From Crambe crambe (lineage: Eukaryota; Porifera; Demospongiae; Poecilosclerida; Crambeidae), in the NCBI GenBank assembly GCA_963924555.1, contig OZ004596.1:2108001-2172000 (forward strand): DNA of 64,000 nt, in the 5' to 3' direction. This document shows, piece by piece, positions 33,516 to 43,056 of the stretch; positions within the stretch are counted from its first letter, which is position 1, and each line of letters opens with the position of its first letter. The notes under the pieces were generated by a model. The model saw nothing but the letters and a program-made list of their open reading frames with translations, was not told the DNA's origin and ran no database searches. Both the position numbers and the translations under genes were made by a program.

Positions 33516-35991
33516 CATACATACATACATACATACATACAAGACTACATTATTATGGTCCATACAAATTTTTTTGGTGTTTATATTTTCTCTGTGTTGC
33601 TTATGCTTTCTATTAGTGTAACTTTCAGAATTGCACTTGTTATTATTGGAATTGATAAAAGTGGTCAATGTGACTTGAAACTAATGCTAGTCCAGTGGTC
33701 ATAAATTCAACAACTGATGTATGTATGTTGCGTACATTGAGAAGAAAAATTGAAACCAAAAAAAAGCACACTGCCATCTGTTCTGAAACAGTCTGTGATA
33801 TTATTGCTCATATTGCTACTATGCAAGACTGATGCAATAAATACTAGGAACTTATAATATATACCCCCTGGATGTGAACATGTTAGTCATCTCATTGCAT
33901 TTTTCCGGAAATGATAAGTGTTTTGTAAACTGATAAACTTTCATAAATACTATATCCCATTGACCTATTACATGCATGGATGTGATCATGCATGCTTATT
34001 GAATCGTCTGATTGCATTTTCCGGGAATGATAAGTTGTTTTTGTCAACTGAAAAGCAAAACAAACTTCCTCATGCATTTGTGTCCCATATGGTTATACTT
34101 ACTTTTGTTTCACTTCTAGTTTTGGATACGTAACTGGATTTGTATTGTAACCAAAAGAAATGTAATTCACCTCATGATGATGGCTAAGGTCCCTTCCTGC
34201 ATGTTCAAACATGCTCCCATGAATAACTGGATGTTCTCGTGCCTGATGCAACTCAGCGTTGTCACCTCATCTAAAAAGCAGGTCAAGTCTTCAACTTCTC
34301 TAATCCTCCGCGAGCGAACACAAATATTACCATGCCAGTATCCACTGCAAGATTAAGAGTTTAGTAATGAAAGTCAAGTGTCTTTTGCCACTGCAAGATT
34401 AAAAGGTTAATATAAACTGACCATTACTTGTATAAGCTAATTTATTCATATGAACTGTCTTATCACAGCTGAATATATCTCTTAGCTGTACATGCTTGAT
34501 TGTATGAGCCAATAGACGTGTATGCGAGGCACATTGTCACTCGCTCGCATACACAAAGCACAACCGCTCCATTCAAATGACTGAATCGCTAGTTTATGAT
34601 AATGGTATCTATCCCATGCAGCCTTCATAACAAGCATAAACACTGAATAGGATCCTTCACGTTTAGCACTCCATTAATACACACTCACAACGAAGTGCGA
34701 TTGGAACTTTTTCCAGCAAGTCAAGTGGCTTTCAAATTGGACTGCCACATGCCAGACAACCATTGAATTATGAATGGCTCTCTCATTCTTGTCAGCTTGT
34801 ACTTTCAAACTCAACACACAAAGAAAAGTCGTGCATATCAACGTCTCGCTCATGTGATTAGTACTTGTAGGAGTGGTTCATAAGGTATTCTAGTTTACAC
34901 ATGAAAGCGAGTTAACATGTGAGAATACTAGCACAACATATAAAGATCATGTGAACAACTTGTTGCTTTACATGCCATGTGATTGTTCAGTGACTTTCAA
35001 AAGTCATGACTACTTCATCTTCACTTAGCTAATTGAAGCACCTTTGTACATCAAAATCATAAATTCCCAAATTATTATCGTTGTAGCTAGATATGGACAT
35101 GACATCATTATAACATAAAAATTTTGATTCAAATACCTCCTGAATTTTTCTTACCTGTAAATTGTTTCCAGCTCAGTGGAAGAAACAATATTACCAAGAG
35201 TCACCTCATTCTCTGCAATCCTCCAATTGTCCCAACCAGATACACCCCCTTCTCGTTGTTCCAACTCTGCATAGCCTCCATCTCCTGCAGGTGGAGGGAG
35301 GTAGAGGGCAGGGCTGGGGAGATTATCATTGGAAATGGTGCTGTAACCCGAGGAAATCTCTGAGCTATTCGATTTCTCTACTCCTCCCAGAAGAAAATCG
35401 TCTTCAGTGTAGCCATAACCTAACATAAAGATGCTAAATAAAAAAATATATACACCGTTGACATAACTATATACCAGATTGTTCTTCCCAACTTTGTAAG
35501 AAAACATCATCATACTCTTCTTCATCACTGAGCTGCGCACAACCTTCTGTCACCAGAACCTGCACCGAATCGCTCAAACTTCCTCTTCTACTCGGACTTT
35601 TCTTTGCATATCGTTCAGGAATGGCCCCACAGGACAAGCTACGGCATTCAGTGACTGTGGTGTCTGTGCTCGATCGATTTATGCTCTCCTCCACTTTGCA
35701 GAGTCCATCTATGGCTTGCACTGGCTCAGAGTAAATGCGACGAGCTTCGTTCCAATGCAGCTGTAGTTGCTGCGTTTCAGGCTCCTGTGCTTGCAGCTTC
35801 CTTTTCAGAGCTCCACGATCCCTGCTTCTTGGTCCATCTGCTGTTGCTACTGCGGAGTCCACTGATACTAAACGGGTCAGTGTTGTAGAATTGCTTGCGG
35901 TACTGGTTTGAGATTGCCTACGGAGAACGCTGCGCTTGACGGCTCCTATGCCATTGATAAATCTTGCCCTAAGGTCTCGAAGTCTCCCCAT
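28157..35991 (-). CDS. KSR: KSR/RAF-like pseudokinase
   Basis: Seven exons on the complement, 35991-35475, 35419-35155, 34344-34171, 33242-33146, 29456-29092, 28878-28671 and 28243-28157, give 570 aa. The C-terminal half resembles the RAF/KSR kinase fold: 'WRIAENEVTLGNIV', 'CIRHENIQLFMGACLN', 'ILRQIAEGMEYLHSRGI', 'ADVFAFGTIVYELVMLEYPY' and 'QCWKESPQQRPTFKDLL'. Catalytic residues are lost. The glycine loop is absent, the VAIK lysine is Arg ('ICVR', as in KSR), HRD-KxxN is 'HGLLSSQSI', and DFG reads 'SLAP'. A roughly 50-residue basic Ser/Arg/Cys-rich insertion follows 'PETVREL'. The N-terminal 260 residues are Ser-rich with no visible C1 domain or SAM-like region, so it is much shorter than vertebrate KSR (about 900 aa). 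A scaffold role in RAF-MEK signalling is inferred. The third intron from the 3' end is 3.7 kb. Confidence 0.68.
28942..29017. repeat. (ATAC)n microsatellite
   Basis: A tetranucleotide run inside an intron of the KSR-like gene, the same motif as at 21383 and 33486. Confidence 0.9.
29459..29518. repeat. (GA)n microsatellite at a minus-strand acceptor
   Basis: On the coding (minus) strand this is a (CT)n run directly preceding the AG acceptor of the exon 29456-29092. Confidence 0.9.
29519..33145. other. Large intron of KSR-like gene
   Basis: A 3.6-kb stretch with no recognised exon. It contains several A/T homopolymers (near 30289, 30330, 32190-32230) and the MITE candidate at 30968-31127. Confidence 0.45.
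30968..31127. mobile_element. MITE candidate with TA-bounded inverted ends
   Basis: CTGAGCATGTGCAG at the left and CTGCACATGCCCAG at the right are imperfect inverted repeats. Each is bordered by TA, and they are 160 bp apart in the KSR-like intron. The interior contains tandem 'TTTCAGAGATCT' motifs. Tc1/mariner-type origin is inferred from the TA borders only. Confidence 0.4.
33486..33541. repeat. (ATAC)n microsatellite
   Basis: A tetranucleotide run in an intron of the KSR-like gene. Confidence 0.9.
33893..34060. repeat. Diverged direct repeat pair in KSR-like intron
   Basis: The block GCATTTTTCCGGAAATGATAAG near 33896 recurs as GCATTTTCCGGGAATGATAAG near 34013; both copies continue with TTGTTTTTGT/A-AACTGA-like sequence. 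A local duplication is the simplest reading. Confidence 0.5.
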
Positions 35992-36342
35992 GGTACTAAC
36001 ACTACTAGCTATGACTAAAGGTACTTGTGATTTTTCTGTGCGGAATGTTTGAGATCAATATTGATGAGGACTATAATTTTATACAACTTCCCACGCAATA
36101 TTTATTATTTCTATTACGTAATAATCGAGGAAGCGCAAAAGTAATTTTATACAAAATCATTACAAAGTAAGACAAAAAAGCAACACTCTTGAGAGATGCA
36201 TTAACTTGCATTCTTGCATTACTGATTTTGTTTGAAAATGAACCAGATAATAGGAGATCAAAGGATAGAGAATAGAGAATAAAGGGGAAAATGTTATCAT
36301 TATAATTACAGATATATATATTATTTTGCTTTATAAATCTAA
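35992..36342. promoter_or_regulatory. KSR-like promoter and CRTC 3' flank
   Basis: 351 bp between two minus-strand genes. A minus-strand AATAAA for CRTC lies at 36101-36106 and an ATTACGTAAT palindrome near 36113-36122, about 125 bp upstream of the KSR-like ATG. Confidence 0.45.
36101..36106 (-). terminator. Candidate poly(A) signal of CRTC
   Basis: TTTATT on the plus strand reads AATAAA on the minus strand, about 240 bp after the CRTC stop codon. Confidence 0.4.
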
Positions 36343-37474
36343 TTATCTAGAGGTATGAAGGTAAGAATCTGGGGAAGATGATATAGCACCTGCTGGAGGT
36401 ATAATTCCAGCATCTGTGTTCAATATATGACTCACATCAAAGGAGTGCAAATCCACTTGGTTATTGATCAATTCCATGACGGAATCGTCCATTTCAAAAT
36501 CGGCAACAGTGGGCATGAAGAACTCAGAAGGACTTTCAGGAGGTTGTTTTTCTATTATGTGATCATCGACAGTTAGATCTGTCATAGCCACTGAAGGCAA
36601 TGAGAGTTGGTGCTGGAAAGTTTTGTTCCGGTTGCTTGAAAAAGTCTCACTTAGATCAGGGATGGGAGGGTTCTGGATTAGATCGGTGAGCGAGCGGTGA
36701 TGGTGAGGAGGTGATCCATAGTGGAGACCGACAGATGCGCTAGAGTCCAAAGGCCATTCATGGAACATGAACTCGTTGAGGGAGTTTGGATGGTCCAGCC
36801 AAAAGGGACGGACTGATGGGGGAGAGGAGGCATAGCTGGCAGAAGTGGACGGGCTGTCCAGATTGGTGGGCGAATCAGTTCCATCCTGCTGTTGGTCTGA
36901 AGCTTGTGATTCCACATAGACACAAGGCACACTGTTAGCATTGGTGAGTGTCCCCATAAAGGGATTTTGCTGGATAAGTTCAGTGGATTTTTCCTTCTGT
37001 ATCTTCTGGAGATTCTCTTCAGAATGACTGCGGATCAAAGCCTCAGGTTTCCCAACATTGATGGAGGCAAACTTCTGTTGGAGAGCTTGCTGCTGCTTTG
37101 CTTCAACATAACTGGGGAGAACAGGTAGTCCAGGGCTGATGGTGATTGTCGGTGTGCTGGGGAGAGAGGCACCACTGTGGAAAAGATTAGGTAATGGCTT
37201 AGAAGAAGAGTTGGAGAGAGGAGAATCCATGTAAGAGGTACTGAGAGGGGGTTGAGGTGGGGAGTTAGTGTTGATCACAGATGGACCACTACCAGCAGTT
37301 TGTTTGAGATGTTGGTTCTCTGCTCCTGCAATGGTGGTAATACTTTGAGTGGAACTTGGCGGCTGAATAATGATTGTCATGGGAGCATTGGGGCTACCAT
37401 GGTTGGTATGGTTCAGGGGGTCTAAAACTTGAGGGATGAAAGTCAATGCTGACCCATATTGAGGTGGTGGCAGC

Positions 37475-37513
<39 letters not shown>

Positions 37514-40500
37514 GATTGAGAATTTCCAGCTTGCAGGTTGCTTGGCAGAATTGGTTTTAGTCTGGGATATTCGTGAGGAAGTGTAGGAAGATGGTGATGG
37601 ACAGAGTTCAATGTTCGAAAATCTGGCATGGTAGGACTTTTGGTTATCCCTCCTCCTCCTCCTCCAGGAGGAGGCACCACTTGGAAAGCTGCTAAAGGAG
37701 AAGCCTGTCTCATTCCCAATCCACTTTGTTTGGAACCAGAATTGACTGTTCCTTGAGGGAGAAATGGGAACTGAAATCCGGCATATCTGGGCTGCTGCAT
37801 GAAGTTTGGATGAATGTTGTTGAAAGTGGGAGGAGCACTAGGAGGAGGGAGAGAAGCATAGAGTAATTTAGACGGTCCTGGATGAACAGCTGGAGGAGAA
37901 AAGAAAGTCCCACTTTGTCCTAATGATTGTTGCTGTTGTTGCTGTTGTTGTTGTTGTTGTTGCTGTTGTTGTTGTTGAATTGTTAGCTGGTGATGAGTTG
38001 GGGGAGGCGGGTGAGGGTCATCTTTTTCCAAGGGTACCTCAAGTCCAGATGAGAACTCAATGTTTGTGAGGTCAGGGAGACTGGATGTGGCTCCCCCAGC
38101 ACCCGCCAAGCCAAGCGGAGAAGGAACTGGAAGATCAGGACTGCCTGCATATTGGTCAGGACTGCAGAGAGAGTGGGGAGGGAGGTGTTGCAATTAAGGC
38201 ATATCAGTAGGCTTATAATTAAAAATCTTCCCAACCATACCCACTTTAATTAGTAACAATGACCAAAAATGACTTCAGAATCTTGAGCACAACATAAAAA
38301 CCCAATAAGCATTAAACCAAACCAAGGTCCATTTACGCATTCTTATGAATGACTTGTGAATTAATGAGCGATGATGTATGCTTACCTGAGAAGGGCATGA
38401 GCTGTTGATGCCGAGTTTGTTCTTCTCTGTTGGTGTGTGTATCAAACATAAGCACATCACTATAGTCATATTATGTATACATACATACATGTGTTGGTTA
38501 TAATCAAAGGTTAACACTTGGAAGAATATTACAGTCAACAGTGACAAATGATGCTGTAACACCATTGATTAATATTATCACCTTTAAAGTGTACTACATA
38601 TTGGCCACTATTTTATAGAATCCTAGTTTCCTGTCCAAGAAGACATCTACAAGTGCTGCGGGCAGGCGGTTATTACAATTATTCTATTATTGCTTCATTG
38701 TTTGTCTCAAAGGTCCTGTCTTCATCATTCACCACGGGCTTTCCCAAAAAGAGCTGTATGTGAAGCCAAACGCACGCGCTCTACTGTGCACATGAGCAGT
38801 GGCAGTATATTTTTTGATGCGGTGAGATTTTTAATACACAGGGAGTGGACAGGAAACAATCATTCTATTCATAGTGGCCTTATGGAAAATAGAATCTCTC
38901 TTGAGATCAGTGTAGTGAGCAGCTGCAATTGTATGAAGACACACACTAGGAGGTAGTGGCCAACCAGCTGAGGAACTCAGCTTTTACTTGTTAGCTACCT
39001 CCCACAAACCCCTTCAACCTGTACATCTATCTAGTGTGGGTTTCCACAAAAGAAGAAGACATCAAAACTGAAATACCACACCCACTTCAATTCCTTTCTT
39101 AAATCAACTTGAGATTACAAACACACACATTGACACTATATATAAAATCACATCAAGTGATAATGAATGGAAAAGGATAAACTGACCACTATAAATATTT
39201 TAACCTCGTCCTATGAGCTCTTATATATAGGACTGATGCAGGCAAAGAGTACAAGACAAAGCATGGATACCTATGTATGGAAGGTATAGTAGGAGAGATG
39301 GCAAAGAGTGATGGATACCTACGTATGGAAGGTATAGTAGGAGAGATGGCAAAGAATGATGGATAAGCATGTGTGATCCTAGCTTCGTACCCAGTTATGC
39401 GGAGGCGGGAAATAGAGCCTGGTACCCACTGTTTGCGCATGCGCCAAAAATTTCACACGCAATTCCCGCCTATTACACTTTATGATGGTGTGTGATGTCA
39501 CAGCATGTAACTACGTGTATGAGCATGCACTATAAGATACCAAGAAAGCTATTGCAATGAAATTCTCTGGAAAAGAGAAGACAAAACTGGCACTTCTAAA
39601 ACTATTCATAGTGGCAAGAATTATCCATAAGCCGCTCTCCTTTAAATCCAGAGGGATCACAGCCTCAGCTCTGCACTATTTCCCAACGAACAGAGAGAAT
39701 TGCTTGCTGCTGCTCCTTGTTCAGTACTAGGTGGGGTTATCCCAGCTGAGATAGGCACACTGTCTGCTAAGAACTGGTGACTAGAGCTAGCCTGTTGCAG
39801 TGCTGATTCAGCAGTATTACATCACGCGTCACGGAAGATTACTGAGAGATTACAATTTCCCCCAATCAGGGAGGAAAATTGGCACATGTGCAAACAGTGG
39901 GTACCAGGCTCTTTTGTCTGCCTCCGCAAAATTTTAGAGCCTGGGGATGAGGCTAGTGTGATCTTAGATCCAGAAGCACACATGATCGATTTCACGCATG
40001 TGCAAACTGTCATCAAACTTCAATATTCTTGACTGACTAGAGAACGACTGCTCACCAGCTTGGTTAGCTAGCTATCCTGAGTTTTCAACTGTACGGGTGC
40101 ATCTTTTCAACTGTCAGTGTGGTAAAAGAGATGGCCACACCTCTTCTCCACCTCTCCTGGCTGCTATAATAAAGAAAGCACGCTTTTTCCCAGAATTACA
40201 CTTCTTTAATATCAATAATACATCAGCTGCTGTGTGCTCGTAGCTGTTTGAACTGTGGTAAGTGCGCTAGTTCCTAGATCAAGGCATGACTCGTAGCTGT
40301 TTGAACTGTGGTAAGTGCGCTAGCTCCTAGATCAAGGCATGCTCGTAGCTGTTTGAGCTGTGGTAAGTGCGCTAGCTCCTAGATCAAGGCATGATAGACA
40401 GACAGACAGACAGATAAAAAGATTACTATAACCCTTGCGCATGCACTGAGGGTTAATTATGAAAGTATGAACAGATGGAAGGCGTAGGGCAATGGATAAC

Positions 40501-41420
40501 TATGGAAGGTCACAGTACATACAACCACAAAAGTAGCCCTACCCATCCACTGTCTTCCCATAATATAAATTGCACTGCAGGAGTCCTATTGTGAGGGTTC
40601 TCATTTCAAAGGATGTCATCATTACTGTGATCATTTAAAGGAAAGGTGCCTGACTACCTTGGATAAGTACGGAGAATATGTATAAATGGTGTAAATAACT
40701 CCATATGTACCTATTTCCCTAATCTACATAGTCTAAAGAAAGGTCTAACTATTTTGCTTAGAAGATGAGAAAACTCCTGTTGTTATCATTATGCAATAAT
40801 GATGCAATGTTCTATTTTCATTGACTCACCCACAGGGCCAGATCACCAGGGGGGTTCACTGCAAAACAAATACAGAATACATCATAATTATGAAAAGCCT
40901 CAATAAAGAAATGAAGTCATATTATGTAATCCCCTACTATACTCGACTGCACAAACCGGTACATGTAGATCACATGTTCAATATTACCGGGTTCAGCTGA
41001 AAGTGCTTGCACACTTGCACTAATGGGTCTGGCAATGCCAGAGAGGTGGTCATTGGTCAAATTTTGCCATTCCAAACAGCTTCCACTGTTACGTATTAGA
41101 CTAATACTTACTTTTATAATTTCTTGGTGACTGTTGAGAAGAGTAACTTTGTGGAGAGCCTTGACCTTGTTGTTGAGTGCGGGGGGCTTGTTGGGGGGAG
41201 TTGAGGGTGAGGGGAGAAACGTGCTGTGGGGAACCTTGCTGCATCAATAAGCTCTGCTGAAGATCAGAGTCTGATTTATGTCTACAAGAAAAAACCCATT
41301 GTTAGCAAGTCTCTCTCTCTCTCTCTCTCTCTCCCTCTCTCTCTCTCACTCACTCACTCACTCACTCACTCACTCACTCACTCACTCACTCACTCACTCA
41401 CTCACTCACTCACTCACTCA

Positions 41421-41476
<56 letters not shown>

Positions 41477-42263
41477 ATGATCACATACCTGGACAGATCC
41501 CCTTCAATCCATTCTCCTGAATGAGACCTACAAAGTTGGTAAAGGGTCATTGACTCAATTAGCCCAGTGCACGTGTACATGTATTCAGATGCTGGACTTA
41601 CACATTCCAGTAGTGGTCAGAGTGATTGTGTCCAGGGGTGGGATAAGGGTCAGTGTCCATGTGCACAGCAGTTAAGACAAATTACAAATGATAATTTACG
41701 GTAAGGGACATCACCACTCCAGAAGAGTGGCCTGTCATAAACACTGATGATAAGTACTCTATTAATATCACCCCCCCCCCCCCCCCCCCCCAGATATTAT
41801 TAGTGTACAATCTGTACAGTAGATGTGATTAGAAAAATGTCCTCATATCAGGGGTGAAGCAATAATGCAATACGGAGTCTACAACAATAAGGGGTTCCAT
41901 TGACTTTCTAGCATGCAATAGAACAGGGGAGCCCACAATATTGTAAATATTGACTTTAGTTATCCCATGTCTAGCATACCACGAAAAGGTATTAAGCTAA
42001 ATATGGAATGAGAGGATATAGAGGTTGCCTTGGCGATGGTGGCCCTTCTACCACTGGGTCCACTACTATGAGGTCTGTCTTTAGAGCTGGAAGAAAAAGA
42101 GCCTGAAAAAGACTTGGATCCTTCCTGTGTCACTTCGTTGAAGTCATGGAGCACCACCTGCATATCTATGCTTGGACCAGGAGGGGTGGAGTCAATGGCT
42201 TGCAAAGAGGGCATGGAACCACCTCCACCATGCAGTCTAGCTCGCTGCATCTGGAGGGAGAAG

Positions 42264-42338
<75 letters not shown>

Positions 42339-43056
42339 GTCTACCTATCACTACTGATATTTGAAGCTAGGAATCTGTAGTAGTCACAGCAAGGACTCAT
42401 GGTTTATACTCCATTGCTATGGTACTGATACTATAAAGGTGTTCTCAGAGGCTGATGAGGAAGGGAGTAAGCCATATTATGTCAGGGAAAGTATGACAGT
42501 TATGTAGGCTACAAGGAGATCATTATGCCGATATTGATTACATTTGACCGAGGTATCGGGTTCACATTATTAACCACAGGTTTAGATAAGTGGCAGTGTG
42601 TTCTTGTACACTGTTATGTCCTGAAGGCTTTTAGGCCGAAGCTTACTAAGAATGCATCACACACACAGGCATCCAGAATGAAGCTGAAATGTGATTATTG
42701 AACAATACAGTTGATGAGTGAGGATTAAACTAGGTGTTATCTGCTACTTAACAATTCACTTGAGAGTTACTTGTGCATAAGTTAGTTCAATGGGCTAGGG
42801 TCTAACTTCTTCCCACCTCTTATCTGAAGGCAATCTAGCTCAAGTTTACATCACATTACTAACAGTGGATCACTTCAAAATGTATCTGCTGCTTATTGTA
42901 CTGCTTACTCACTTCATAAATGCTTTTCATGGCATGCTCGAAAGCTTCTGACTGCTCGTGCTCCCTCTTTTTCATGATGGCTATCTTTTCCATCAGCCTT
43001 CGAGGTTTCTTCCCATCTGTGGAATCTGTCGTCCTACTGCGCATTCGATGAGACAT
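36343..43056 (-). CDS. CRTC: CREB-regulated transcription coactivator
   Basis: Eight exons on the complement, 43056-42913, 42250-42020, 41660-41602, 41527-41489, 41281-41112, 40858-40830, 38426-38386 and 38161-36343, give 843 aa. CRTC proteins shuttle to the nucleus when dephosphorylated and co-activate CREB. The N-terminal CREB-binding helix is 'PRRLMEKIAIMKKREHEQSE'. The regulatory 14-3-3/SIK-site region reads 'LALWRRTNSASTAHALL' and is built across three exons. The central family signature is 'SSLPDLTNIEFSSGLEVPL' (about residue 264), and 'RSHSEENLQKIQKE' follows. The C-terminal third is acidic and Ser/Pro-rich, fitting the transactivation domain. Two polyglutamine runs lie in the last exon. 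Intron 2 appears to be a U12-type AT-AC intron. ATG 43056 is the first in frame; there is no evidence for an upstream coding exon. Confidence 0.9.
37474..37512 (-). repeat. CAA/CAG repeat encoding polyglutamine in CRTC
   Basis: A run of (GTT)n on the plus strand reads as CAA codons in the CRTC frame. Confidence 0.85.
37928..37978 (-). repeat. CAA/CAG repeat encoding polyglutamine in CRTC
   Basis: A mixed CAA/CAG run of about 17 Gln codons after 'HHQLTIQ' in the last CRTC exon. Confidence 0.85.
39250..39362. repeat. Tandem duplication of about 52 bp
   Basis: Two adjacent copies of a unit starting GATACCTATGTATGGAAGG and ending GATGGCAAAGA lie just outside the left end of the hAT-like element. 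Confidence 0.7.
39371..39378. repeat. Target-site duplication, left
   Basis: GTGTGATC precedes the element at 39379 and is repeated at 39956-39963. Confidence 0.7.
39379..39955. mobile_element. hAT-like MITE with 8-bp target duplication
   Basis: A 577-bp element in a CRTC intron. Inverted ends of about 70 bp share CTAGC at the tips, then TGCGGAGGC and a strongly conserved AGAGCCTGGTACCCACTGTT block (near 39415 on the left, its complement near 39895 on the right). The 8-bp direct repeats GTGTGATC flank it. No transposase ORF is present. The 8-bp duplication fits hAT-type elements, although the tip sequence is not diagnostic. Confidence 0.7.
39956..39963. repeat. Target-site duplication, right
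   Basis: GTGTGATC follows the element and matches 39371-39378. Confidence 0.7.
40237..40393. repeat. Minisatellite, three copies of about 52 bp
   Basis: Copies begin CTCGTAGCTGTTTGA at 40237, 40290 and 40342 and end AGATCAAGGCATG. A short (GACA)n run follows at about 40394-40413. Confidence 0.85.
41311..41475. repeat. Compound (TC)n (CTCA)n (CA)n microsatellite
   Basis: It lies within the short CRTC intron between exons 41489 and 41281 and makes up most of that intron. Confidence 0.9.
41771..41791. repeat. Poly-C/G homopolymer
   Basis: About 21 C residues on the plus strand (G on the sense strand) inside the probable AT-AC intron of CRTC. The length may be subject to sequencing error. Confidence 0.85.
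42264..42335. repeat. (GA)n microsatellite near a minus-strand acceptor
   Basis: It reads (CT)n on the coding strand, ending about 14 bases before the exon that begins at 42250. Confidence 0.9.

Follow-up and report, generated by a model that had tools for sequence, protein, structure and literature searches.

The question raised by the DNA of Crambe crambe analysed here, a stretch of 64,000 nucleotides (the window), is how the second and the third coding exons of a CRTC gene, a member of an animal gene family, are joined to each other. The organization of this gene and of the intron in question is the following (slashes mark splice borders):

42913..43056, minus strand: coding part of exon 1, from the ATG to GAA/GTGAGT; CREB-binding N-terminus (Pfam TORC_N)
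42020..42250, minus strand: exon 2, ending with ..ACC TCT in phase 0
41661..42019, minus strand: very likely U12-type AT-AC intron, 359 nt, delimited on the basis of sites, phase and frames
42011..42019, minus strand: putative U12-type 5' splice site, ATATCCTCT, from sequence reading
41671..41679, minus strand: putative branch site, TGTCTTAAC, whose branch A (41672) lies 11 nt from the 3' end of the intron
41661..41666, minus strand: 3' border GTGCAC (the PHB2 intron of this genome ends with GTGCAC, that of KCMF1 with TTGCAC)
41602..41660, minus strand: exon 3, 59 nt, from phase 0 to phase 2, donor GT/GTAAGT
41489..41527, minus strand: exon 4, whose phase matches that of the exon-3 donor (phase 2)
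41112..41281, minus strand: exon 5, from codon score and frame reading
40830..40858, minus strand: exon 6, matching human CRTC1 together with exon 7
38386..38426, minus strand: exon 7, WRRTNSAS region
36343..38161, minus strand: last exon, from the SSLPDLTNIEF region to the stop

The translation of exons 1-5 is recognized by the Pfam TORC_N model (E 2e-5, 25.6 bits, cut-off 25), and the hand-typed full CRTC protein scores 24.8 bits, slightly below the same cut-off. In all the alignments the human CRTC1 and CRTC2 sequences are approximate, and the significance was assessed with 300 shuffles per comparison. The score of exon 1 was equalled by 0/300 shuffles against each of the two human proteins, and the same holds for the last exon; exons 6+7 gave 0/300 against CRTC1 and 21/300 against CRTC2, and exon 2 matched them weakly (14/300 and 17/300, respectively). 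WRRTNS and SLPDLTN, which we take to be CRTC motifs, are both present, in exons 6+7 and in the last exon, respectively. When the CRTC protein was searched against the genome (143,139,886 bases in 119 contigs), all five matches with E up to 0.01 fell inside this single locus, i.e., the gene is found once in this genome. Long simple repeats, read here on the sense strand, are present in the introns: CT repeats directly before the exon-2 acceptor (about 42270-42335), a run of G within the AT-AC intron (41771-41791), and, separating exon 4 from exon 5, GT/GAGT/GA arrays (41311-41473). A 195-codon ORF (35467-36054, minus strand) lies some 290 nt past the stop codon of CRTC.

The minus strand reads ...GCC AAG GCA ACC TCT (end 42020)/ATATCCTCTCAT...TGTCTTAACTGCTGTGCAC (end 41661)/ATG GAC ACT GAC, or, with a longer stretch at the 3' end, TTTGTCTTAACTGCTGTGCAC/ATG GAC ACT GAC. 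Both flanks of the intron are in phase 0, and the exons are joined in frame at an exact TCT/ATG junction, as the preliminary description had stated. The match to the sites of the minor spliceosome, also claimed there, is borne out as far as the AC border and two good sites are concerned, and is nevertheless imperfect: the 5' site agrees with ATATCCTTT at 8/9 letters, the deviation being a C at +8 (in the eight-letter form, ATATCCTC versus the U12-type ATATCCTT, 7/8, with +1 to +7 exact), and the branch site agrees with TTCCTTAAC at 7/9 letters (GTCTTAAC versus TCCTTAAC, 6/8). An alternative AC located six bases further on (end 41655) is in frame as well; it was rejected as the border, being 17 nt from the branch A, versus 11-12 nt in the PHB2 and KCMF1 introns of this genome, and having no TGCAC end such as theirs. 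From these sites and phases, we infer that the interval is actually spliced out, most likely by the minor spliceosome as a U12-type AT-AC intron.

The number of 5' sites scoring at least as high as that of CRTC in the window (7 on both strands, that of CRTC included) is close to the one expected by chance (random rate 5.85e-5 per base), so that the 5' site alone means little. A full solution was defined as a 5' site, a branch site at the right distance, an AC or AG, a matching phase and an open frame up to the exon-3 donor. Full solutions scoring at least as well were found in 3/20,000 shuffles (two of them AT-AC) in which exon 2 was retained and all the downstream sequence was redrawn with a first-order Markov model; since the U12 weight matrices used here, as well as for the 5'-site rate, are approximations, this figure is to be read as an order of magnitude. 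Over the whole genome, short canonical U12 introns were sought with a strict pattern, which matched 30 times (several times within tandem repeats, and with some overlaps) versus 34 in the reversed control; this count, which shows no excess, is uninformative.

As for an ordinary acceptor in front of exon 3, none of the 12 AGs from 41995 to the exon-3 donor gives an open frame. Ahead of the 3' border, the final AG occupies 41718-41717, and a TAA in frame 0 follows at 41684-41682, in agreement with the earlier observation that no AG exists on the minus strand between 41717 and 41661 and that a TAA stands in the way of longer readings. The more general statement that no canonical acceptor is available holds for exon 3, but not for joins that bypass it. 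On paper, the major spliceosome might use the donor GTG/GTATGC (first intron base 41979, phase 1) and an exon whose first base is 41591, 41516 or 41513, with open frames and agreeing phases in all cases; moreover, the donor score (5.9) falls inside the range of the other CRTC donors (5.0 to 11.8, the lowest being that of exon 3 itself). However, the stretches that such a GT-AG intron would add to the coding sequence are not coding-like, in that 588/2560 intron stretches, and 1475/2538 in the frame used, score as high; the coding-like exon 3 and its GTAAGT donor would be left unused, and the U12-type signals, with the shuffle frequency reported above, would be coincidental. In addition, the protein containing exon 3 aligns somewhat better with the approximate human sequences than one of the proteins obtained by bypassing it (109 versus 93 for CRTC1; 116 versus 112 for CRTC2). 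The GT-AG join from donor 41979 is the best of the alternatives, and in our opinion it is improbable.

The codon score of exon 3 in its own frame is equalled by just 18/2541 intron stretches of the same length, versus 131/2542 and 1273/2543 in the remaining two frames; that of exon 4 is weaker (187/2562). Exons 3+4 did not show a clear similarity to human CRTC1 and CRTC2 (129/300 and 31/300 shuffles, respectively, equal the score), and thus the assignment of exon 3 is based on its reading frame, its codon usage and the splice sites flanking it. The idea that exon 3 might correspond to the D.SPY stretch conserved in vertebrate CRTC was discarded, as the alignment gave it no support. Exon 3 opens exactly with ATGG, and a second promoter might be imagined to drive a shorter CRTC whose coding sequence begins with this exon, the AT-AC signals being coincidental. 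Under this scheme, however, exons 1-2 would need another in-frame exit, and no phase-2 donor of exon 2 reaches a positive score for a join to the exon-4 acceptor; moreover, neither the complete set of signals nor the agreement in phase would be accounted for. Such an arrangement appears very improbable.

It is known that AT-AC termini alone do not establish the U12 route (PMC2831892), and the same AT-AC intron might in principle be excised by the major spliceosome, as happens with some sodium-channel introns. Nevertheless, these U2-type AT-AC introns have a G at +5 (according to the same source), whereas CRTC has CC at +5/+6 and a U12-type branch site, which argues against removal by the major spliceosome and makes this route scarcely credible.

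The U12-type AT-AC intron of CRTC would require a minor spliceosome. The preliminary description had suggested a search for the genes of the four minor snRNAs, and each of them gave a single genome match over the Rfam gathering score: U12 (107.1 bits), U11 (97.7), U6atac (107.6) and U4atac (69.3). The predicted U4atac/U6atac stem II is long (-22.0 kcal/mol) and carries changes on both sides with respect to the Rfam consensus, as might be expected of working partners. In the proposed mechanism, U11 would recognize ATATCCT at the 5' site, U12 would pair with the branch site, leaving the A at 41672 bulged out, and the addition of U4atac/U6atac would make the minor spliceosome complete; TCT and ATG would then be joined via the AC border, 11 nt past the branch A, and splicing would link the CREB-binding N-terminus (exons 1-2) to the regulatory remainder of the protein.

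Further minor introns were looked for in genes of a published set. According to Table 2 of PMC2831892, PHB2, KCMF1 and STX6 harbor U12-type AT-AC introns common to fly and human, and LSM12 a U12-type GT-AG intron common to the same two organisms. Two of these four control genes were positive in this genome. The PHB2 intron (locus L060) reads CGTATG/ATATCCTTCATG...TTTCCTTGACTCTCGGTGCAC/TTGGGA, is 96 nt long and has the anatomy ATATCCTTC..TTCCTTGAC..GTGCAC, with the branch A 12 nt from the end; the KCMF1 intron (locus L070) reads TTAGAA/ATATCCTTCTCA...GTCCTTGACTCTTTTGCAC/CAGGAA, is 116 nt long and has the anatomy ATATCCTTC..GTCCTTGAC..TTGCAC, with the branch A 11 nt from the end. In the part of the STX6 locus that was read, there are GT-AG joins only and no U12-type intron; the LSM12 query had no match in the genome. 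Both the PHB2 and the KCMF1 introns share with that of CRTC the AT-AC ends, the ATATCC start, a TTRAC branch site 11-12 nt from a TGCAC end, and phase 0; they differ from it in that their 5' and branch sites score nearer the consensus. The pairing predicted with the U12 of this genome is weaker at the CRTC branch site than at that of PHB2 (-4.4 versus -10.9 kcal/mol), and so is the U11 pairing predicted at the 5' site (-3.1 versus -4.0 kcal/mol); both were counted against the U12-type reading. Phase 0 was also counted against it, on the basis of PMC10639083, although the PHB2 and KCMF1 introns are in phase 0 too. The two control genes that yielded no minor intron (STX6 and LSM12) and the missing excess in the genome-wide count were placed on the same side. 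On the whole, the sites, the phase, the four snRNA genes and the two sister AT-AC introns support the original proposal of a U12-type AT-AC intron in CRTC.

A U12-type intron was also recognized in one of the eight MAPK-like loci that were read (L067, L068 and L072-L077). In the p38-like locus L067, it is a U12-type GT-AG intron, GTATCCTCC...ACCTTAAT...GCAG, in phase 1. As judged by eye, the p38-like loci L067 and L068 (minus strand; reverse-complement positions of about 1980 and 1780, respectively) are interrupted by an intron at a shared codon and with identical phase; its start is of the U12 type in L067 (GTATCCTCC) and major-like (GTGAGT) in L068, i.e., the paralogues differ in intron type.

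The U6atac gene (L003:1501-1628, corresponding to C14:6412117-6412244) deserves attention. Its first 29 nt follow the Rfam consensus except for A12G, A13C and G14C; in other words, nucleotides 12-14 are GCC in place of AAG, within the box pairing with the minor 5' splice site (nucleotides 11-16), which changes from AAAGGA to AGCCGA. TATCCT is kept in all four minor introns read (CRTC, PHB2, KCMF1 and p38). In reporter work, the pairing of U6atac GG14/15 with intron CC5/6 is an experimentally used rule (PMC4980772); here, position 14 is changed and position 15 is kept. In the usual register, AGCCGA forms 4/6 pairs with the CRTC UCCUCU (+4, +5, +8 and +9); its pairs with UCCUUU, the consensus, are at +4, +5 and +9, with a wobble at +8. 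The U6atac of this genome is thus incompletely complementary to the CRTC site in the usual register, and this was counted against the U12-type reading.

In ATATCCTCT, C8 and U9 face G12 and A11 of U6atac, suggesting that the CRTC site fits the altered U6atac better than the consensus site does, in the usual register. The best predicted duplexes speak against giving this much weight: that of CRTC, which lies in another register, gives -7.9 kcal/mol with this U6atac versus -7.8 with the consensus one, and that of PHB2 -6.8 versus -6.9; the consensus 5' site alone loses with this U6atac (-4.7 versus -6.4 kcal/mol). Positions +8,+9 are CT in CRTC, TC in PHB2 and in KCMF1, and CC in p38, none being TT, although four minor introns, of which that of p38 was recognized after looking, are too few for a claim on these positions. 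A second U6atac was searched for in the genome with a 20-mer allowing 3 mismatches, which was found in 20 places versus 20 in the control, and the known gene is the only one scored as U6atac by Rfam; the U6atac 5' box had no match in a collection of genome contigs. One match to the box in a collection of viral contigs, giving no Rfam hit at the gathering threshold, was taken as chance. A second U6atac may lie outside the assembly, or an assembly or sequence error may be behind the GCC. It is also conceivable, albeit doubtful, that the minor spliceosome works with a rewritten U6atac box (AAAGGA to AGCCGA) while the introns keep TATCCT; in such a case, activation of the 5' site might proceed through a split helix (+4,+5 and +8,+9) or in another register.

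The human CRTC family (CRTC1, CRTC2 and CRTC3) is listed among minor-intron genes, within 59 "younger" ones whose age estimates come from genes rather than introns (PMC6865273); the human introns and the one described here belong to the same gene family, which is the level at which they are compared. PMC4736632 mentions CRTC in a reference title only. Human CRTC minor introns being already on record, the AT-AC intron of this genome represents a newly found case of a known kind, and it is very probably an ordinary minor-spliceosome intron.

If the intron were retained, the reading frame would gain 19 extra codons and then meet a TAA at 41962-41960. This would yield the CREB-binding part alone, or an mRNA fated for decay; since the regulatory part would be cut off, minor splicing would gate the production of full-length CRTC. 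We infer such a gating role as a possible one. In human cells, the basal retention of AT-AN minor introns is comparatively high (PMC8280824). It has also been proposed that minor introns act as switches governed by the level of U6atac, which is raised by p38 (PMC3728624).

A small animal genome can now be credited, very likely, with an AT-AC minor intron in its CRTC gene. As far as gene models are concerned, a finder restricted to GT-AG introns would omit or misjoin CRTC exon 3. The change in U6atac is more surprising than the CRTC intron itself and, if true, would matter more, since it seems to break the GG14/15-CC5/6 rule at position 14 (PMC4980772). Finally, if the minor introns of human CRTC genes share the same codon, their gain, which is dated by gene age alone (PMC6865273), would have to be placed as early as the ancestor that both lineages share.
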